From assembly GCF_021134715.1 (NCBI RefSeq), contig NC_060025.1:1240001-1304000 (forward strand): DNA of 64,000 nt, read 5' to 3'. The DNA comes from Daphnia pulex. Its lineage: Eukaryota; Arthropoda; Branchiopoda; Diplostraca; Daphniidae. The translations under genes and the position numbers were made by a program. Below are positions 5,538 through 41,041 of the stretch, piece by piece; within the stretch, counting starts at the first letter, position 1, and every line of letters begins with the position of its first letter. The notes beneath the pieces were generated by a model. It was not told the origin of the DNA. It was given only the letters and a program-made list of their open reading frames with translations, and made no database searches.

Positions 5538-6291
5538 ATGAAGGTAAAACACCAAGTGATATTCTTTTTTTAAATTTTGAATTTAATTAATTCACAAATC
5601 TTTTTGACATTTCAGTTTATCATTTTTGCTGCATTGTTCGCCGTTGCTACCGCTGCCTATGGTACGACTTACTCAGAGCCAGCTTCATCTGAAATTGCTT
5701 CTTCCGAAGGGGCTTCATCCGCACCAGTTTACTCCGCATCGGACAAACATGTACGTATTTCTCGAAAACCTAGACAGACCTTTTCTATGTTTTTTACATT
5801 TTCTGATTGCTTATCAGTACGATGGCAACAATGAAGACGACGACGATGATGATGAAGATGTCAAAGATAACACTTCGGATGAGACTAAGGACACAGCTAC
5901 CTCATACAATTCAAAAGTTAACAGCAAGGATTCCGAAAAGTCGTCATCGGAAAAGGCCAGTTCCATAACGCAGGAGGATACCAAATCCACATACGATGCC
6001 AACTTCAACGATGAAACCGAAGAGACTAAATCAACGACTGTCTCATACGTCACCCCAGCTTACTCTGCCCCGGCATATTCTGCCCCGGCATACTCTGCCC
6101 CGGCATATTCTGCCCCGACATACTCTGCCCCGGTATACTCTGCCCCGGTATACTCTGCCCCGGAATACTCTGCCCCGGAATACTCCCCTCCGGAATACTC
6201 TCCTCCTGATTACTCCGCTCCGGCCGCTCCTTCCTATGTAACCCCGGGCACCCTTTTGCCTTTTTGGCTACGATCAAGAAGTCAGTACTAA
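5538..6291 (+). CDS. Secreted YSAP-repeat protein with acidic domain (YSAP family, member C)
   Basis: Exons 5538-5543 (ATG AAG only), 5616-5750 and 5818-6291 give about 204 aa. The signal peptide is MKFIIFAALFAVATAAYG. Next comes a Ser-rich stretch, an Asp/Glu run directly after the second intron, and a Lys/Ser/Thr/Asp-rich region. It ends with 11 or so tandem pentapeptides of form xYSAP/xYSPP and a tail ending LPFWLRSRSQY. The tail matches the LPYWLRS of member A. The layout (signal, acidic linker, YSAP array, basic aromatic tail) suggests an extracellular structural or matrix protein. Tyrosines in the repeats could be cross-linked, but this is inference. Confidence 0.88.
6058..6225 (+). repeat. 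Coding 15-bp minisatellite (YSAP array)
   Basis: About eleven tandem 15-bp units of type TACTCTGCCCCGGCA encode the YSAP pentapeptides of gene C. The first units are almost identical and the last diverge toward YSPP, as expected for slippage-driven arrays. Confidence 0.9.
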
Positions 6292-9966: not shown

Positions 9967-11366
9967 ATGTTGGGTGTCAATCCATCTGGACGCTATTTTC
10001 AACATGGTCCTGGTCCTCAACATTACAACCCTTATCCACCCATACAACATGGACGGTAATAATCATTTATCTAGCCATTAAACTTTATGTAAACACAGTC
10101 TTTGCTTATTTGGCAGTCTTCCGTCTCTACCTTACCATCCTACTGCCCCATTCCACAATCAAAGCAGTGTTCATCCCACATTTGATGAAAGAGCTCACTC
10201 TACAAAACCTCGTGCTGGAGGATTTAATTTTCCCCATCCTGAATCGTCATTTGCTGAGTTACAAACCTTCTGTAACAGAACTAGACAAGCAACAGCATCA
10301 CTTTCACGTCCACCAGTTCATCAGTCTCAGTGAGTGTCTTTTAACTGCATCTTCACCAATAACATAGACACTTCTAATATTCATGATTTATAGGCCCCGG
10401 AAAATAACAACTTTCCCAAAACCCCATTCTTATGGCCATTGTTATTATGATGAAGAAGAAGCTGATTGGTTTGATTTTGGTGATGAAATTCAAATTCTTG
10501 AAGGGGACTCCCAGATCACGGAACCAAGGTTTGAAATGTTTCCTGTGCCCGAAGAACCTGTAGTGCCATTCGAACAATTGACGGTCGCCTTGATGGATGA
10601 TTACGAATTCTATTGCGATGATAAAGATTTTATCCAGGTCTACACAGACGGATCGTACATTAACGGTCGTTTTAAGCTGATCGATTCTGTTTCTGCAATT
10701 GGAGTCTGGTTTGGACCAAATCATAAATTGTGGGTTTAGTTTTGTTTAAATTAGTTGCAAGAAAATCTTGTGAACTTTTATTATATTATCTTGCAGAAAT
10801 GTCAGCCAGCCCACTCGACTCGGTGGTTACAACAGTGATGGGGCAGAGTTAGAAGCCATCATTGAAGCAATAAAAATTGTCTGCTCCTGTGGTATCGTAT
10901 TTTTACGCATTTAAGTGAATAGTGATGCTAGATTTTTTGTGCTTTTCAGGTGTTGACAAGGTTCAAATTAACACAGACAGTAAAAATTCTGTTAGATTTG
11001 TGACATATTTTATCAGTAAATGGGAAGCTAATGGATGGCGGAATATTAAAGGACTTCCTGTTCGAAACCAAAATCTAATTCGCCAACTGTACCATTACAC
11101 ACAATTGGTTACAATTAAATGGGTATACAAATAGCTCGTATTGACTTTCTGGTGCATCGCATTTTTAATAAATTTTTATTTGCTAGAATTATGTGCCATC
11201 GTGTGGAGGAGTGCACGGGAACGTCGAAGCGGACCGTCTGGCACGGATTGCATCTGCCGCTTGTGCAGGAAAAGGAAAAAGACAAAATTTATCAATGAAG
11301 CGAACATCAGAAGATCCGCCCAGTCGAATTAATAACCGAAAGCTGCGGAGATATTGCCCGTATTAA
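9967..11366 (+). CDS. RNase HI-fold protein with full catalytic set (copy 1)
   Basis: Six exons (9967-10055, 10117-10329, 10394-10729, 10797-10891, 10950-11122, 11187-11366) give about 361 aa. The N-terminal 100 residues are Pro/His-rich, with the conserved patch FPHPESSFAELQTFCNR, followed by an acidic DEEEADWFD motif. The C-terminal half is an RNase HI fold: VYTDGSY (first Asp), GAELEAIIEAI (Glu), QINTDSKNSV (Asp) and GVHGNVEADRLA (His loop and last Asp), ending in a basic tail. These match the metal-binding D-E-D-D set of RNase H1, so cleavage of RNA in RNA:DNA hybrids is plausible. The usual RNase H1 hybrid-binding domain is not seen, and the long N-terminal extension is unlike RNASEH1. 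It is tandem with a related gene at 12069. Confidence 0.86.
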
Positions 11367-12068
11367 ACAAATTTTTGTTTCGCTCAACGCTTGGGTAAAT
11401 CTTCACTTCGAGCTTCACCCAGCTTGGTTATAATCTCAAGAGTAGACGACTTGTTTTCTTTCTGATTTTATTTTACCAGTCTCTGGACTGCTTGCAAATT
11501 TCACTTCGCGATTGTTGTCTTTAGTTTTATTAACAAGCAGTCAAACACTCTTTTGTTTATGTATTAAATTTATACTTTAGTAGACTGTGTGTTCTAGTTC
11601 ACATGCAGTTTTCTTTTGCCTCTCCGTTAAAAGATATGTATGAATGTATGACATCCTTTTTACTTCAGATATGTATGGGCCTTATTACAAATTTGAAATC
11701 CTGCGTCTGGTTTGTGAAATCGATTCACGAGATCAAACTATAAACAAAGCTGGATAATCGGATTAAACTATCGATTTTTAAATGGCCGCCACCACTATTT
11801 TGCCGCTAGGGGTCTCGATAGAATTCACAATCAGACGAATCAGTATTGTTCTCGAAGCCTCGATAGAACAGTCGGTAGTTTAATGTTTATCATTGTGTGC
11901 TCACTGTTCGTGAAAGATTAAACTTAAATTCATTATTTTCTGAGAAAAGTATTCGTAGAACTAAGTTATTTTTTATAACAATCAAGGTAATTGGTATTGT
12001 GAGTCAGAGCCTAATACCTAATCGATAATCTGAAAATTTCTTTGTGAACACGTGGAAACGTTTATAGG
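11367..12068. other. Intergenic between the RNase H-like pair
   Basis: The stretch holds the 3' flank of copy 1 and the promoter and 5' UTR of copy 2. TATCGATT at about 11769 and two further CTCGATAGAA motifs near 11815 and 11860 resemble the DRE/DREF site of arthropod housekeeping promoters. A 5' UTR intron probably ends at 12068. Confidence 0.5.
11769..11776. promoter_or_regulatory. DRE-like site (TATCGATT)
   Basis: It is a near match to the DREF target TATCGATA, 300 bases upstream of the copy 2 start. It is followed by GCCGCCACC-rich sequence typical of non-TATA promoters. Role inferred. Confidence 0.4.
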
Positions 12069-13753
12069 ATGTCGCACAGAGCATATACGCCATGTTCTCC
12101 TTCGATGGCTCACTATCCATATTCTCCATCTTCTAATTATGGGTAAACTTTGTAAACGTTTTTGTTAAAAAGATAGTTGTAATGCGTGAATCTACTTCAG
12201 TTTTCCAGTGGACTATTATAGTGATTCAAATGCTCCCAACTATCCTCATCCTGATGCCTCATTTGCTGATCTGCAAGCATTCTGCAACAGGAGTAGGAAT
12301 TCTACAGCAGGAAGTGCATATGCTCCATCTCTTCCGTAAGTATTTTTAGTTATGTGTTGTTATTGTTTTGTTCAGCAAATTTGAAATCTAGGTTTGAAAA
12401 TTCAGAGGCAGTAAGCATGAATTAGTAAATCTTTTGAGGTTCTGCCGTGTTCTGTTACTCAATATATTTCATTTTGAAGATCCACAGATTAATTTGGTGT
12501 AGAGCTTCACTGAATATTGATAATAACATTTCGTCTCTATATTTTTAAAGGGACTCTGATGTACAATCTCAGTACTTTGTAGCTGATTTGGTAACAACCA
12601 ATGATGCTTGCTTTCCCAGGAGCAGAAACTCCATGGCAGGAAGTCTTGCCAACTCCCTTCCGTAAGTGTCAGTAAAAAGTTTGTTGTAGACTTCTTGGTT
12701 TTGATTCCATGAACTTAGCCTATTTATCATATTTGGTCCTTTTTTTGTATAATTTTTGATCACTGTTAATTCATTTGATTAGGGATTTTGACACATCACA
12801 ATATGAAACCAATGATGACGGCGTTGATTACGGCTACGTACCTGTGGGCAACGAAAATGGCGGTGAAGATGAGGACGATGATGATGGAGCGGATTGGTTT
12901 GACATGGAAGCTCTGACTGGTTTAAGCATCGATGAATTAGACGAGAATGGTTTGGGCGATCCTTCATGGAGGTTTGAATTCCCTCTACCTATGCTTCCCG
13001 TCGTGCCTGTGTTGGAATTGAAGACGGAAATATTTGATGGCCAAACTTTTTACGTTGATGATGAAGGATATGTACAAGCATATACCCAAGGAGAGTGTCG
13101 AGTTCCTTTCACTGGAAAAGCATCCATCGGAGTTTGGTTTGGACCAAACCACCAAGCGTAAGATATATCTTGTAAAATTTTGTTATAATTTTAATTTCTG
13201 AAATTAAAACTTCAGGAATGTAAGCGAACGTCTTCATCGCGGTCGGCGAACTCAAGAAGCAGCTCGTTTTGCTGCAGTAATTGAAGCCATTAGAGTAGCT
13301 GGAGCCCACGGGATTAAAAAATTGCAGATCAATACGGATTATGAAAATATAATCCGTTTCATGATTTACTTCATCTTGAAGTGGGAGCAGAATGACTGGA
13401 TGACATTGAGAGGACATCATGTCAAGAACAAAGTGCTGATTCTGGAATTAGACTACTTTTCACGACTTCTTGATATTAAATGGGTAAGGATTCCGGCGTA
13501 TTAGAAATGTATTTTCCTTTGTGTTCTTAAACGTTTTTCGTGTTACCAGAATTATGTCCCCTACTACGAGGGTGCCGAAGGCAATTTGGAAGCAGCTCAT
13601 CTTGCACTGGAGGCTCATGATCTGCAATTACCACAAGTGAGAAAAACTGCAGAAGAGATGGAGATGGACGTTGTTCAGGATGAGCAACCTAAAGGATCAA
13701 CTTCAAACGAAGAGGTTACGAAAAAGCGACGGTTTGTTCCTATTGTGTATTAA
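12069..13753 (+). CDS. RNase HI-fold pseudoenzyme (copy 2, catalytic residues lost)
   Basis: Six exons (12069-12142, 12201-12335, 12551-12661, 12783-13157, 13216-13483, 13550-13753) give about 388 aa. It mirrors the gene at 9967: YPHPDASFADLQAFCNR, an acidic run ending GADWFD, then the RNase HI fold. The key positions differ. TDGSY has become TQGEC, the helix Glu position reads Arg (EAARFAAVIEAI), and GNVEADRLA has become GNLEAAHLA; only the QINTD Asp remains. The hydrophobic core and the shared motif IGVWFGPNH are kept, and the frame is open throughout, so this is a maintained protein rather than a dead gene. It probably lost nuclease activity and may bind nucleic acid or a partner. Exon 3 repeats part of exon 2. 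The tail is acidic, then basic (KKRRFVPIVY). Confidence 0.86.
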
Positions 13754-13806
13754 GTTCTGTGTTTCGGTTATCGTTGGATGCCCGAAATTGTTTCTTCGTT
13801 TTAGAA

Positions 13807-14153
13807 ACATTGTGTGCTCCAATGTTAACAATTATTTGCTAATTTAAATCCAGCCTAACCAATCCTGGTTAATTCGTAATCATTAAGCGTCTGGTAACAG
13901 TTTATATTAACCAAGAAATTGTTTTTGTTATTATTTTTGAAAAAATACGTGAATACCCAACAGAGGAATTGCTGTAATTAACATTGTGTGCTCCAATGTT
14001 AACAATTATTTGCTAATTTAAATCCAGCCTAACCAATCCTGGTTAATTCGTAATCATTAAGCGTCTGGTAACAGTTTATATTAACCAAGAAATTGTTTTT
14101 GTTATTATTTTTGAAAAAATACGTGAATACCCAACAGAGGAATTGCTGTAATT
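13807..14153. repeat. Tandem duplication, 174 bp x 2, identical
   Basis: 13807-13980 is repeated immediately at 13981-14153 without a mismatch that I can find until the last base. It lies in the 3' flank of the RNase H-like copy 2. It is either a very recent duplication or an assembly artefact. Confidence 0.95.
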
Positions 14154-15828
14154 TTCATTACCTTATCAGGTAAAAAAGGAAAATACATTTTCAGTTGTGA
14201 TTAAATTTTATTTTTGGGATTTCTTTTTGAAGATTTCTTTCTGTTATTATTTATTTAGTGTTTCTATAGGGATATAGTCCTAAAAGTTCCGCCTTCTTGT
14301 TTCTGGCCGTCTTATTAGTAAAACACCAACAGAATATTATTGACGTTTACTACGCCTACCTCAAAAATCTCTATTAAAGGTAGATATTGTAAAATTGTAA
14401 CAAAATGGGCAGAAACTTCACGTAGAGTTACACTAAGTTTCACGGAACTTTTTTTTTCATTCTGCCGAAGGATCAGATAATAGCTGAATGCTATATTACG
14501 ATTGTCCTTTGACAGCAATTGGGAACATTGACAGAAGCGCAATGTAATTTTCCTGTGTGCAATTTTCAAACACGATTGACAAATCATGTCTTCATGTCAG
14601 CTTTCGACGTAAACTTTTTCGAGTGCCAAATGGGATAAGAATTAAGAACACGTCAGGGCCGTAAACAATTCAGACTATGACATTTTATTTAGCAAAACTA
14701 TTGTGCCTTTTTGGATTTTAGATTTTGCAATTCGTGACTACATCAGTACATTGAGAGACATTTTTATTATTTACGTTTAAATATTTGAATCTCTGCGTTG
14801 CCACTTGCCAAAAGCCCGGAAGTGATACATAGCACGCCTCTGGTGGTCAATGTTGATACACTTGATGCGCCACAGCGGTGACAGACTGACAGTGCCATCG
14901 GGTTGTTTTCCCTTTTACTTACTGTTCCACTATTGCCTTCTCCATTATTTTAAAAGAAAATAAGTTTTTTTTTTTCGGTCAAGTACTCAAGTTAATGTTT
15001 CAAGTATAACAGATAACAGACAGATAGGCAACAAACTCAACACAACATTGGCTGTGTTGTGTGCTGAAAGTAATGCACCACATTTTTAGTTACTTCCCTG
15101 GATTTTTGAAGACATCTTGTCTACAATTTAAGGTGTGATTTACTTTAGTTAACCCAGTAAGCTATAAAATGAAAAAAAACTATGAATTTAGCATCAAACA
15201 GTTGGAGCATCACTGGCATGTTTCTCTGTATTTCAGATCAAATTCTCTACTTATTTATGTGTTTGTCACCGTGAAATTTCTTTTAAATCAAAGACCTGCC
15301 CAAATCCATTTCAAGTGTAACTTATCACATCATACCATAGACTATACAAACTTCAATAGCTCACTAGGAAGATTAATCAATAACTTTGCTCACACCTGGT
15401 AATTCTAAATTGTAGTTCAAAAGTTGATGATGCAGTCACTCATCATCTAATGGTAAATTTACTGATTTATTCATGGTTGTAATTGTCTTTCTCTTTCAGT
15501 ACTTTGTGTAGTATCCATTAAAATCATTAATATAGTAACTATATATTTTTTACTTTATCAATGTCATCTTAAAATTTTTATCATTATTTACTAGGGTCTG
15601 TAAAGCCAAATCACTGACAGACTGCAATCCCACTTTCACACCATCTATAAGAAACATCATCCAACTCGTCCAGAATTTAACCTGTCAACAGTATTGTTAA
15701 ACTGGTAAAATCAAATAAATATTAACCATATAATATAGTAATAAGTAATAACATGTGTGGCAGTTTTCTATTTGGTTTCAAATTGTAATAACCATTTATT
15801 TTTCTATTTATTATAATCTAGAAGAAAA
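14154..15828. other. Intergenic and probable 5' UTR of the BTB gene
   Basis: No coding frame I trust is present; those at 14315-14587 and 15169-15402 lack motifs. Sequence near 14900-15130 (a CTCTGGTGG-type promoter region) followed by AT-rich intron-like sequence up to an acceptor (AATCTAG) at about 15822 suggests one or more non-coding first exons of the gene at 15829. Confidence 0.4.
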
Positions 15829-16893
15829 ATGTGTAACGCCAGTTCCAATGTTCAGGTAGAAGAATTACGAATTGGATTGTTTCGTGTGCACTGGGATTTA
15901 GAAAAGAATATGCGAATAAAGAAATGCGGTTTCTTCAAAAATAAGCTTCATTTGCATGGATCCCAGTCTGGCCGAATTTACAACATCTTCTATATATTTG
16001 AATCACAAGATTTTGATGCACTCTACCCTTACAACTTCGGTATTCGACTCGAAGAGATATCGTGCATTTGTGATTCCAGCGTTGCTGAAACTAATGAATC
16101 TGCTGCGAAATATCAGCAAAAGGCAGAACGCCAAAAGTTTAACGATACTTCATTTCTCCCCACAGAGACTGAAAGAAAAAACGTACCTCCAGTTCGTGTG
16201 TGGTTTGAATTTGAAGAGGCTAATACCACCACTGACTTAGAATTGGAGTACGACAAGGATGATAATCACTGGAAAGTTTATTTTTTCGGTCAAAGACAAC
16301 CGTTTGGTATTACATTGTTTATGGATTTTGGGACCAAGGAAATGGACGAGAAAATAATCATTAACGGACTAGAGGGAATGTTTGTCACCCAAACTCTTTG
16401 TGACGTCCATTTCCAGTTTAAAGACGGACAATCTGTTGGTGCCCACATCGTAATCCTTTCGGCCGGAAGTCCCGTTTTTTCAGCCATGTTCCAGTCAGGG
16501 CTTTTAGAATCAAAATCCCGAATAGTGGACATCGACGACATTGAATTTGATGTGTTCCGGCAACTGCTCATCTATTTGTATACAGGAATGGCTCCCAAAG
16601 TGACAGAGGAATCCATCACTCAGTTGCTCTTCGTGGCGTCTGATAAATACGGCGTGGAAGCTCTCAAGAATAAATGTGTTAATGTGTTGAAAACTCAACT
16701 GAAAATCAGCAACGCGATCTCAATTTTGGTTTGGGCTCACTTCCATTCCATTCCAAAGCTCTTAAAAAAAGCTATGAAATTTGTGTTGATAAATTGCAGT
16801 AAGCTCTCCCGTCAGCCCGAATGGATGGAGTTGATGAAGAACTATCCGGAACTATGTCTCGACATCACCCAACGCATCAGCGATCTTACATGA
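15829..16893 (+). CDS. BTB/POZ domain protein (SPOP-like C-terminal half)
   Basis: A single coding exon of 354 aa directly follows an acceptor site. A BTB domain lies at about residues 183-290: LCDVHFQF, then AHIVILSAGSPVFSAMF, then the IYLYTGMAP helix. A BACK-like helical region follows, with the usual DKYGVEALKNKC segment. BTB domains dimerise and bind Cullin-3, so a substrate-adaptor role in ubiquitination is plausible. The N-terminal 170 residues occupy the place of a MATH domain but do not show clear MATH motifs, so the target-binding region is diverged or different. Arthropods have expanded families of such proteins. Specific substrate unknown. Confidence 0.88.
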   Translation: MCNASSNVQVEELRIGLFRVHWDLEKNMRIKKCGFFKNKLHLHGSQSGRIYNIFYIFESQDFDALYPYNFGIRLEEISCICDSSVAETNESAAKYQQKAERQKFNDTSFLPTETERKNVPPVRVWFEFEEANTTTDLELEYDKDDNHWKVYFFGQRQPFGITLFMDFGTKEMDEKIIINGLEGMFVTQTLCDVHFQFKDGQSVGAHIVILSAGSPVFSAMFQSGLLESKSRIVDIDDIEFDVFRQLLIYLYTGMAPKVTEESITQLLFVASDKYGVEALKNKCVNVLKTQLKISNAISILVWAHFHSIPKLLKKAMKFVLINCSKLSRQPEWMELMKNYPELCLDITQRISDLT

Positions 16894-29905: not shown

Positions 29906-31773
29906 TTAATCGTTTTCAGGTATAGGAATCTCTTGAAACACAATACAGCCAAACATGAAATTCCAGTCGTTTTGAATAGCTGTGTTTTTCCATGTGACAA
30001 TATTATCCAACGTCAGTTTACTGCAGCCAATTAGCAAGATCTTCTTGATTCCATTTTCTTGCATAAACACATTGACACTTCTGTTGGTGATGGAATGGCA
30101 ACCACCTAGTACCAGTTCCTCCAGATGCAAGAAAGGATTCGATTGTGCAGCTGTTAGTAACACATCATCTGTGAGCGTATCGCAATTTCGTATGTCGATT
30201 TCAACAAGTAAAGGTGATAATAAGAGAAACGCCAGATTTTCGGAGGGAATACAAGAGTTGGGATTGGGACCACGGCAACTAGCACAGCAGGATCCAAGGC
30301 ATAATTTGACGAGATTCTTTAGTTTCGGAAGGTCCAATTTGATTCGTTTGGGTCGAGAGGAATTCCACGTGGAGGTAGTGTACTTGCGATTACCCGTGAG
30401 TGCTAGGACGTCAAGATTTGGGCATAGCTCGCAGATGGTGTTGATATTGATAGGGATGCCAAGATCCTGAAGTTTCAGTACCTTCAAATTTCGTCCTTTA
30501 GCTTCCAGAAGGGGAGTAACGCCATCATCGAAAGTAATTTCACTTGAATCTTCACATCCTTTGATGATGAGCTCACATAGTCTTTCAACAGAAATAAGGG
30601 ATAAAAGGTCTGCGTTCTTCAATCCAGCTATCGCAGTAATGTGCACTTTTAACAGGGACGGACAAAGAGACAACACCATCTTGAGTGAACCCCAAGTGTA
30701 AGGAGAAGAGTACTTTTTCTTGAGTTTCAAATCAACGAAGGAATACTTGGGAATTTCCAGCTGCTCTTTGCTCCGGAAGTCCCGCTGATGCATCTCCGCC
30801 AAGATTTGAATTGAGGCCATATCACAGTATTCCAATTCAGGCAAATTTTTAATGGCTACTTGAATGCCGCTATTGGTTACTTGGGTTCCATTGGTCCATA
30901 GTTTAACAATTGATTTGCATAGACCCAGTGATTCATTTTTGTTTCCCAAATGATCAACACTGACAAACAATGATGCTAATCCAACATCTGTAACTTTAGA
31001 GCAGAATGAAACATCCAGTTCTCTAAAATAAAAACAAGAGAATTTAAATTATTACAAATTTTAAGTGAGAAAAGCAAGTTGAGAAGTGCTAAACCTCAAA
31101 TCTTTGCAAAAAGCACCAAGAATTTCCAAACAACTGTCCCCAATTTCACCATCTCCAATGTTCAATACTCTGAGTTGTTGAAATCTCTGGAGGTATGGTT
31201 CCAGGTTGTAAGGAAAGATATCACATCCTGGAGAACGAATGACTTCCAAATTTTTCAACAACTAAAAAAATGTAAATTTAGTCATGATGTACAACAAAAA
31301 GGGTAACTTGTGCAAATTGATTTCTAACTGGACATCTTTTCGAAGCAACTTGAAGAAACCCATCAACGTTTTCAGCTGTTTGGTTGACCATGGCGATTCC
31401 TTCAGATATTAGCATTTCCAGGTAACACCACAGCAACTGATTTCCTTTAGACCTCTCTTTCTGGCGGAATTTGAAAGGAATAAGCTTTGTGATATCCAAC
31501 AATAGTGTTGATGCTGAAAAGGGGGATCAAAACAACACATCAAATGTTTGGTTTACCAAATGTAACATTTTGAAACTTACGCAATAAATCAAAAAAATTC
31601 GATACACGTTTGTAAAGCTCATCATCTTCTCCTTTTTCCAGTAAATCAATGACAGTAGACCCACTATCACTTACTTTTTCAACTAACAACCGATTGATCC
31701 AGTCATCGACAGCCCTCTCTACTTCGTCTAGACATAATCCTTTAAGGGATTTCATTTCCCTGGCGCGAGGCAT
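29906..31773 (-). CDS. LRR protein, AMN1/F-box-LRR-like (paralogue 1)
   Basis: Exons 31773-31581, 31513-31308, 31261-31095 and 31022-29906 give about 560 aa. It opens MPRAREMKSLKGLCLDEV, followed by a helical N-terminal region of about 130 residues. Cysteine-containing leucine-rich repeats run through the rest, for example RELDVSFCSKVTDVGLASL, LVEIDIRNCDTLTDDVL and LEELVLGGCHSITNRSV. These LxxLxLxxCxxITD repeats are the AMN1/FBXL type, which form solenoids that recognise protein targets, often in SCF ubiquitin ligases. A canonical F-box is not obvious; the N-terminal helices may replace it, somewhat like ZYG11 proteins. A close paralogue with the same four-exon structure lies at 39070-41041. 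Confidence 0.83.
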
Positions 31774-39069: not shown

Positions 39070-41041
39070 TCAGACCTCAATTTCGCCTTCTTCTTCACTT
39101 TCTTCTTGGTCTCCTTCTTCTTCATCCGACTCACAAGGCAAAAACAGGACAGATAATTCCCAATTCTTTTCGACGGCTTTGTTTTGCCAATTTTCAACAT
39201 CCTTTTTGGTTAGCTTTTTACAGCAGTTCAAATTGATTTCCGTGAGAGGGTTGCTTTCTGTCATGAACAATTCGATACCTTTCTCAGTCACAAAATTACA
39301 GTCGAACAAGTCTAGTTTCTTAAGATGGTTGAATTCGTTCGATTGGACTGCCTCTTGAAGGACATGGTCTGTGAGTGCATCACAACTCCGAATTTCAATA
39401 TCCGTAAGTGAGGGAGAGGAAAGCAGGCATATCCAGTCTGTGGATAGAATTTCACCACATAATGTAAGCTTCTTCAGTTTCTTAAACTTGAAATTTTTCA
39501 ACTTGATCCGTTTTCGTTGATTCATTCCCGTCCTTTCTTCCATCCATCTGGTTGTCGTGTAAGAATTCCGCCAGAGTTTAAGACAGGTAAGGTTAGGACA
39601 AAATTTGATAAGAATGGGTATGTTCGTGGAAAACCTTGGGATTGGGCGCAGATTCAAAAGTTCCAGTGACGTCAACGAATTTCCTTTAACACTTAAAAGA
39701 GGAACTAAACCGCCAGAAAAAGTGAGGATGTCGGATACCGTACAGACGATTTTGAGTTCGGTGAGTCTTTCCAGGGTCGATAGGCTTAAGAGGTCACGTT
39801 CTTCTTTTAATCCAATTGACCCAACATTTACCCTAGTAAGTGCAGGGCACAGAAAAGCAATCAACTCTAGGCTGCCAGCCAAGTAGAGGTAGGAGCCATT
39901 ACGAGGAGGAATATCCAAAACAGTCAGGGAATATTTAGGCTTGTCCAGCAATTTTTGGCTCATAAAGTCTGCTTGATGCATCTCTGCCAAGTGATGAACA
40001 GTGAGTACATCTAACTCTTGAAGCGCTGGCAAATTTCTAAGGGCGAGTTTGACGCCTTCCCGAGAAACGGATGATCCATAAACCTTTAACCTTCTAATTG
40101 ACTTGCATTTGCCCAACAGTTCACTTTCCGGTCCGGAATTAACAACACTGACACACAACCCTGCTATTCCAGCATCTGTAACCTTTAGGCAGCCTCCAAC
40201 ATCCAGGTCCCTATACACACACACAAATTAAAATAAATATAGGTTACTATATGTTATCAGATACATTTCGTTCAAGTTTATGACACATTTATTCAGTATA
40301 CTTTATTTTCACTATGTATTTATAAAAGTACTCGATCATGTCACCATGTCCAATTTATTAGCAATATACCTCAAATCTTTAAGAAAAATTCCAATGTGGA
40401 TCAAACAGCTGTCTCCTATATCAGAATGCCAAAAGCATAATTTTTGTAAATACTGAAATCTGTGAATGTTTGACGAAACATGCAAGTTAATGTCTTCTTT
40501 CACTTCAGCTATTCTCAAAGATTTCAATTTCTGTAATTCACCAAGATGTTGGAATTAGTAAAATTATAAAAATGTATAGAGAGCTAATTATAGCAATTAG
40601 TTTCTTAACTGGAAATCTTTTCGAGGCAATGTCAAGGAATCCACAAACTATTTGTTTTTTTTCCATATAAATGCTTGCGCTATCCCTTGTTATCAACATT
40701 CTAAGATAACACCACAGTATCCTATTTCCTTGGCATAGTGGTCTGATGTGACGCAGGGGAAGTTTCAACAAAAGTGTAAAAGCTGAAAAAAATAATCAAA
40801 TTACAAATTTATTATGTTACTATTATTTTACTTTTATTAAATAACCATAAAGCTTACGTAATAAATCCAAAAAAGGCATGAAACTTTGGTTAAGTTCGTC
40901 ATCTTCTCCATTTGCCAACAAGTTAATGGCATTTTTTGCAGTAGTGTCATCAATCAATTCGTTGAACCTATTTGTCAATGAACTTCGGACAAACAATGTA
41001 CATATTTCCTTCAGAGATTTTACGTTTCTTGAACGAGGCAT
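39070..41041 (-). CDS. LRR protein, AMN1/F-box-LRR-like (paralogue 2)
   Basis: Exons 41041-40858, 40782-40610, 40530-40370 and 40210-39070 give about 552 aa. The start MPRSRNVKSLKEIC, the first-exon end FLDLLR, the join RDLDVGGCLKVTDAGI and the repeats (LTDIEIRSCDALTDHVL, LKKLDLFDCNFVTEKGI, LTEINLNCCKKLTKKDV) parallel paralogue 1 at 29906. Intron phases are identical. Differences: exon 2 ends about seven codons earlier, at a GTTAAG donor, and there is an acidic tail (ESDEEEGDQEESEEEGE) absent from paralogue 1. Probable target-recognition subunit, as for paralogue 1; function inferred. Confidence 0.82.

Follow-up and report, generated by a model that had tools for sequence, protein, structure and literature searches.

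Within a window of 64,000 nucleotides of the Daphnia pulex genome (C9:1240001-1304000, where C9 is contig NC_060025.1, in a genome of 133,188,837 bases and 13 contigs), two adjacent genes, hereafter copy 1 and copy 2, code for proteins with an RNase H domain. The enzyme RNase H1, which is widely conserved, clears RNA out of RNA:DNA hybrids. Judged by its sequence, the pair is a real, somewhat unusual tandem duplicate derived from RNASEH1, in which a degenerate copy has been kept intact: copy 2 has lost three of the four metal ligands of the active site. We consider it probable, though well short of certain, that copy 1 is a weak or re-targeted nuclease and copy 2 a maintained pseudoenzyme that does not cut. 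A tandem pair with altered His and recognition positions, in which one member lost most of its metal ligands yet stayed intact, is a natural test of what an RNase H domain can do when it no longer cuts.

An old tandem duplicate of the host RNASEH1

A preliminary description of this window, made from its letters alone, had placed a tandem pair of RNase H proteins here, and both genes were found, intact and with six exons each (Table 1). Both copies match the Pfam family PF00075 (RNase_H), copy 1 with E 9.6e-20 and 71.6 bits and copy 2 with E 2.6e-13 and 50.8 bits (curated cut-off 25.8), and the best match of each in the PDB is human RNase H1 (E 4.2e-20 and 6.2e-18, respectively), far ahead of the reverse transcriptase entries. 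The two proteins match each other with E 1.3e-58; their RNase H domains are 42.6% identical over 162 columns, while each is 32-41% identical to those of the ten paralogues introduced below and 37% to the human domain. A Pfam profile search at E up to 1 gave no match to the hybrid-binding domain (PF01693) in either copy. Among NCBIfam models the copies match only those of prokaryotic RNase HI, far under the cut-offs, and a PADLOC search with copy 1, the only copy so searched, gave no match.

All ten introns of the pair have GT-AG borders and copy 2 is open over its six exons, as had been claimed, with no stop, frameshift or broken splice site. The shared intron phases of the preliminary description were borne out in part: with phases 2,2,2,1,0 in copy 1 and 2,2,2,2,0 in copy 2, the initial 2,2,2 and the final 0 agree, but the phase-1 intron within the RNase H domain is absent from copy 2, which has one extra N-terminal exon. 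This exon 3 shares 22 of 28 bases with the 3' half of exon 2, with RSRNSxAGS and SLP common to both, and is likely to be an internal exon duplication.

In the genome as a whole there are 56 matches to PF00075, of unsorted kinds, many of them in long open frames as in retroelements. From these and from the genome matches of copies 1 and 2 we took 14 stretches, a selection rather than the whole. Two of them, L060 and L061, were left out as retroelement-like, with a single-block match to copy 1 and a gap at the protrusion, and two more, L049 and L050, hold N-terminal fragments only; the ten loci kept for their RNase H domains are L051-L059 and L062, where L053 is partial and almost identical to L051. 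Across all loci the introns of the RNase H domain fall at only three positions, namely column 65 in phase 2, column 102 in phase 1 and column 163 in phase 0. All three are present in copy 1, L051, L052, L054, L055, L056, L057, L059 and L062, the first and third in copy 2, the first alone in L058 and the last two in the partial L053. Since exons of a hybrid-binding domain are matched directly upstream of L051 and L052, we take the three-intron pattern to be the RNASEH1 gene's own. In a phylogenetic tree the two copies group together with 94% ultrafast bootstrap support; the remaining branches, at 49-77% except for two near-identical pairs, were not relied on. These comparisons indicate that both copies descend from the host RNASEH1 by duplication at the DNA level and form an old tandem pair.

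Some of these relatives deserve mention in their own right. Ahead of the one RNase H domain of L051, at C9:2747493-2748049, stand two sets of hybrid-binding-domain exon matches, which points to a possible doubling of this domain in the canonical RNASEH1; L053, the partial near-copy of L051, is on C7. Further matches to this domain above the cut-off lie at C8:6891437-6891651 and C3:11641414-11641542. The RNase H1-like loci L054 (C5 9101000-9110000, minus strand) and L055 (C5 9189500-9198500, plus strand) are nearly identical, face opposite ways at a distance of about 88 kb and share a loop that is shortened near the active-site His (VPSHYNKAD); for neither was an N-terminus found. A search of viral_contigs with copy 2 gave 15 pattern matches, and one of genome_contigs with the family alignment of ten rows gave 32; in neither of these collections, which are other than eukaryotic, was a relative confirmed.

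Active site of the two copies

Residues are numbered after human RNase H1 with D145 as the assumed anchor, and the roles of residues 148, 151, 179, 181, 182, 213, 221, 225 and 240 are presumed to be those in the human crystal structure. At positions 145, 186, 210, 264 and 274, copy 1 has D, E, D, C and D, and copy 2 has Q, R, D, Y and A; the human PDB row of our alignment has N at 210. The DEDD ligand set of RNase H1 is thus complete in copy 1 (4/4, in the motifs TDGSY, AELEA, NTDS and EADRLA) and reduced to 1/4 in copy 2, whose Q, R, D and A had been read correctly in the preliminary description. The same description took copy 1 for an enzyme. Its four metal ligands agree with this, but a plain enzyme it is not: neither copy has the active-site His, which is conserved in metazoan RNases H (PMC5603734). 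Because copy 1 has Cys for this His and other conserved positions, 182 and 221 among them, are changed in both copies, the notion of one enzyme and one dead copy is too simple.

Forty alignment columns, the four ligands and 36 others, are conserved in at least six of the seven reference rows. Copy 1 keeps 25 of the 36 other positions and copy 2 keeps 27, which together with its PF00075 match bears out, at the level of sequence, the claim that the scaffold of copy 2 is retained. By the same count L058 keeps 2/4 ligands and 26/36 other positions, and L059 0/4 and 18/36. A conserved residue is changed in both copies at 156, 159, 182, 187, 221 and 264, and 221 (Phe) is the sole one of these six where the new residue is identical; both also have Asn at 213, a position occupied by Phe or Tyr in the other 11 of the 13 rows. 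The substitutions in copy 1 comprise Cys for His264, Asn for T181, Ser for N182, Phe for W221 and Tyr for C148. Copy 2 retains the human residues at 179, 181, 225 and 240, and we take 179, 181 and 240 to form the phosphate pocket.

All five active-site residues are intact in L051, L052, L054, L055, L056 and L057, the four covered by the partial row of L053 are all kept, and L062 has Ala for His next to four kept ligands. At positions 145, 186, 210, 264 and 274, L058 has D, E, E, P and K, and L059 a gap, M, S, K and R. By these rows the family has three degenerate members, copy 2 among them, and copy 1 is not fully canonical. The six positions changed in both copies suggest that changes in recognition and at the His preceded the ligand loss of copy 2; probably those changes came before, or soon after, the copies split.

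Past constraint on copy 2

The ratio of nonsynonymous to synonymous substitution rates (omega) was estimated by purpose-written codon maximum likelihood within this single species. For the pair it was 0.069 over the full length (326 codons) and 0.035 over the domain (162 codons), sizes that mean little given the saturation of synonymous sites, so that only their direction was used. If copy 2 were neutral and copy 1 conserved, the omega of the pair would come near 0.5; this value was rejected (twice the log-likelihood difference, 2dlnL, 41.4 for the full length and 35.2 for the domain), which speaks for constraint across the pair. On the copy-2 branch, an omega of 1 was disfavored with 2dlnL of 4.2-6.0 in three-sequence fits (5.95 with L051, 4.17 with L057 and 5.29 with L052) and would need 0.61-0.67 neutral changes per codon. 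We also simulated neutral evolution of the copy 2 coding sequence with substitutions only, in 400 runs per level. At 0.02, 0.05, 0.1, 0.2 and 0.3 changes per site, 115, 27, 3, 0 and 0 of the 400 copies, respectively, were free of stops, and at 0.2 the mean was 9.3 stops per copy, which makes a long neutral history of copy 2 very unlikely. Related N-terminal fragments on C8 do carry stops and illustrate what decay looks like. The direction of these fits supports past constraint on copy 2, which may have been maintained by selection, as proposed earlier.

N-terminal region and tails

Upstream of the RNase H domain both proteins have the FxPHPxxSFAxLQxFCNR-like and ADWFD motifs, which, like the ligand motifs, are present as the preliminary description quoted them. 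The N-terminal region carries a net charge of -13 over 186 residues in copy 1 and -30 over 209 in copy 2; the RNase H domain of copy 2 has a net charge of +2 and its protrusion is net positive. The architecture had been called unfamiliar, and it proved so: the N-terminal region of neither copy matched a Pfam family, the PDB gave nothing for the copy 1 N-terminus alone, and the whole of copy 2 gave only a chance-level match there (E 0.46). Beyond the pair, the good matches of the copy 1 N-terminus in its own genome are broken fragments at two places on C8, followed by two weak places with E 0.026 and 1.05. The C8 fragments, two pieces each at L049 and L050, are 75-78% identical to copy 1 in DNA and contain stop codons. 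L049 (C8 3998500-4007500) and L050 (C8 2713500-2722500) are themselves inverted segments, 93-94% alike over several kilobases, and one of the two fragments covers copy 1 exons 2 and 3 plus the intervening intron. Basic C-terminal stretches occur in both proteins (KGKRQNLSMKR and RKLRR; KKRR) and may be nuclear signals.

Proposed function and alternative explanations

In the course of events that we propose, duplication of the host RNASEH1 at the DNA level gave the old tandem pair, which has, in place of a recognizable hybrid-binding domain, an acidic N-terminal region of its own with no known domain in it and a basic C-terminal tail. The changes at the His and the recognition positions would have come early, followed by the loss of three of four ligands in copy 2. 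Copy 1 would then most likely act as a weak or re-targeted nuclease, and the RNase H domain of copy 2 would most likely bind a nucleic acid and leave it uncut, the very acidic N-terminus of this copy serving to recruit partners or to keep cutting enzymes off. Copy 2 would thus probably be a non-cutting binder or adaptor. The D10N mutant of Escherichia coli RNase HI is almost devoid of activity, yet its Km is unchanged and it continues to bind R-loops (PMC11594918), so the loss of a ligand does not by itself abolish binding.

Several observations weigh against this interpretation. The preferential loss of ligands over other conserved positions in copy 2 is not significant (Fisher p 0.073). N182, which we assume to contact RNA, is lost in both copies and N151 is also lost in copy 2, and these losses argue against ordinary hybrid binding. 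The Arg at 179 of copy 2 is present in no other paralogue row and may be a coincidence, and the net charge of +2 of the domain says little, since L054, L055, L057 and L062, all with four ligands, have -1 to -3. At only one of the six jointly changed positions, 221, is the new residue common to both copies, and positions 182, 221 and 264 are changed in L058 and L059 too, which weakens the order of events given above. As to constraint, synonymous sites are far past saturation, several branch lengths are at their bound and the test on the copy-2 branch is moderate; moreover, with 27 of 400 simulated copies stop-free at 0.05 neutral changes per site, a recent release is possible. The RNase H fold itself is assigned from sequence homology.

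Among the alternatives, the one to which we give most weight, without expecting it to hold, is that copy 1 is inactive as well or has another substrate, which would make the pair two non-classical proteins. It overlaps with the explanation we favor and draws on the five substitutions of copy 1 at 148, 181, 182, 221 and 264, but all metal ligands of copy 1 are kept, and L062 shows that the His can be replaced in a member with four ligands. Copy 2 could instead act through protein contacts only, for instance by joining copy 1 or RNase H1 as a subunit or by inhibiting one of them, and no longer bind nucleic acid. The loss of positions 151, 182 and 264 along with three ligands fits such a role, as does the strongly acidic N-terminus, and inactive RNase H domains with other roles are described for Prp8 and the reverse transcriptase connection region (PMC5603734); nevertheless, the human residues kept at 179, 181, 225 and 240 and the positive protrusion make this unlikely to be the full account.

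That copy 2 is dying, long constrained and only recently released, we consider quite improbable. Short neutral periods would often enough leave no stop, in 115 of 400 simulations at 0.02 changes per site and in 27 at 0.05, but six exons free of any lesion and constraint across the pair stand against it, and decay looks different in the C8 fragments. Still harder to credit is that both copies are domesticated RNase H domains of retroelements. The abundance of PF00075 matches in long open frames would provide a source, but the copies share intron positions and phases with genes that have hybrid-binding-domain matches upstream, on which ground we discarded a retroelement origin, and their best PDB matches are to human RNase H1 rather than to reverse transcriptases. 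A non-cutting copy 2 beside a weak or re-targeted copy 1 is the explanation that we retain.

Gag-fused paralogues

The more surprising result lies outside the window, in the wider family and above all in four paralogues where the start of the RNase H domain shares an open frame with a Gag capsid domain (L056-L059, Table 1). The upstream domain of L059 matches the Pfam family Retrotrans_gag with E 3.4e-5 and 24.4 bits (cut-off 24.1) and, at E up to 0.01, matches 56 other places in the genome, of which many lie in long open frames and two are the L057 and L058 loci; a PDB search with its N-terminal frame, at E up to 1, gave nothing. In L056, L057 and L058 the upstream domains are shorter; they have no Gag match in Pfam and match L059 with E 6e-5 (L056, partly across the linker), 1.8e-11 (L057) and 6e-9 (L058), and the start of this match resembles what we take to be the major homology region of capsid proteins. 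Among the capsid parts of L056, L057 and L058 an omega of 0.5 was disfavored in all three pairs (2dlnL 11.1, 4.7 and 9.5), and among the RNase H parts of the same paralogues in the two pairs tested (22.1 and 49.8), so that both parts look constrained. In the L056-L059 capsid comparison 0.5 was not rejected (1.1), the L057-L059 and L058-L059 pairs were unused as they did not converge, and between L054 and L055 the RNase H parts differ too little for the test (0.1).

A remnant of Gag in the N-termini of copies 1 and 2 was considered and rejected: the hhalign profile comparison was confined to the beginning of the RNase H domain (probability 6.4%), and the BLAST matches were all weak, the strongest of them (E 0.026) lying there as well. 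No evidence thus links ADWFD to the AEWLVD of the capsid domain. One may picture an RNASEH1 family that is directed against retroelements and has, counting the pair and one partial locus, at least 12 intron-bearing loci; the captured Gag domain of L056-L059 would bring RNase H into retroelement particles, as a natural counterpart of the engineered Gag-RNase HI antivirals, and degenerate members such as copy 2, L058 and L059 would serve as non-cutting decoys or binders in the same pathway. We regard this as rather improbable as a whole; copies 1 and 2 have no capsid domain, so a role common to them and L056-L059 is conjecture. The fused paralogues may nonetheless matter more than the pair, as they suggest that a nuclease steered by a captured capsid domain may have evolved naturally in an animal; to our knowledge, such nucleases have been described only as engineered antivirals. 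Among the matches listed in a search of open-access literature, titles and abstract beginnings mention neither an RNASEH1 expansion in Daphnia nor a natural Gag-RNASEH1 fusion.

Feature coordinates and other features of the window

Table 1. Coordinates of the gene pair (window positions) and of the Gag-fused paralogues (contig positions).
Feature	Position	Strand	Remarks
Copy 1	9967..11366	+	six exons, 361 amino acids; RNase H domain about residues 179-324
Copy 1 exons	9967-10055, 10117-10329, 10394-10729, 10797-10891, 10950-11122, 11187-11366	+	
Copy 1 N-terminal segment FNFPHPESSFAELQTFCNR	10223..10279	+	
Copy 1 acidic-aromatic motif ADWFD	10461..10475	+	
Copy 1 first metal ligand, Asp (human D145)	10647..10649	+	from alignment
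Copy 1 Cys at active-site His position (human H264)	11202..11204	+	from alignment
Copy 2	12069..13753	+	six exons, 388 amino acids; RNase H domain about residues 203-343
Copy 2 exons	12069-12142, 12201-12335, 12551-12661, 12783-13157, 13216-13483, 13550-13753	+	
Copy 2 N-terminal segment YPHPDASFADLQAFCNR	12241..12291	+	
Copy 2 exon 3	12551..12661	+	similar to the 3' half/end of exon 2
Copy 2 motif ADWFD	12889..12903	+	within strongly acidic stretch
Copy 2 first ligand position, Gln	13087..13089	+	from alignment
Copy 2 second ligand position (human E186), Arg	13265..13267	+	from alignment
Copy 2 Tyr at active-site His position	13565..13567	+	from alignment
Copy 2 fourth ligand position (human D274), Ala	13595..13597	+	from alignment
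L056	C5:9294000-9303000	minus	RNase H start and Gag capsid domain in one open frame; full active site
L057	C2:821500-830500		RNase H start and Gag capsid domain in one open frame; full active site
L058	C12:9678500-9687500		RNase H start and Gag capsid domain in one open frame; degenerate active site
L059	C6:3805000-3814000		RNase H start and Gag capsid domain in one open frame; degenerate active site

Directly downstream of copy 2, at 13806-14153, lies a perfect (100%) tandem duplication of 174 bases, which is either a very recent event or an assembly artefact. Elsewhere in the window, a long open frame at 15817-16893 has a BTB/POZ domain (E 7.5e-23), and at 6053-6223 a 15-base repeat array, which follows an acidic stretch of a long open frame, encodes repeats of the PAYSA/PEYSA type. 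On the minus strand, the leucine-rich open frames at 29906-31048 (with an LRR_6 match below the cut-off only) and 39070-40227 look alike and are perhaps a local duplicate pair.

Comparison with known systems

The layout of L056-L059, with the Gag part N-terminal and RNase H C-terminal, is that of capsid-targeted viral inactivation, in which engineered Gag-RNase HI fusions inhibit murine leukaemia virus (PMC5035972). Those fusions are engineered with E. coli RNase HI, whereas the paralogues are natural and carry the C-terminal part of the capsid, with a longer Gag part in L059; copies 1 and 2 themselves do not have this layout. The pair is like eukaryotic RNase H1 in the sequence of its RNase H domain and in introns at the positions of the genome's own RNASEH1-type genes, and differs from it in that no hybrid-binding domain was found, in a new N-terminus, in the missing His of both copies and in the three ligands missing from copy 2.

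Human RNase H1 D210N and E. coli RNase HI D10N are used as catalytically dead R-loop sensors. D10N still binds R-loops (PMC11594918). Copy 2 resembles both mutants in the loss of ligands with the scaffold kept, but they are single engineered changes, whereas copy 2 is natural and has many more, recognition positions included. Prp8 and the reverse transcriptase connection region are like it in being natural RNase H folds kept without catalysis (PMC5603734); they are domains inside larger proteins, whereas copy 2 belongs to a tandem duplicate of RNASEH1.

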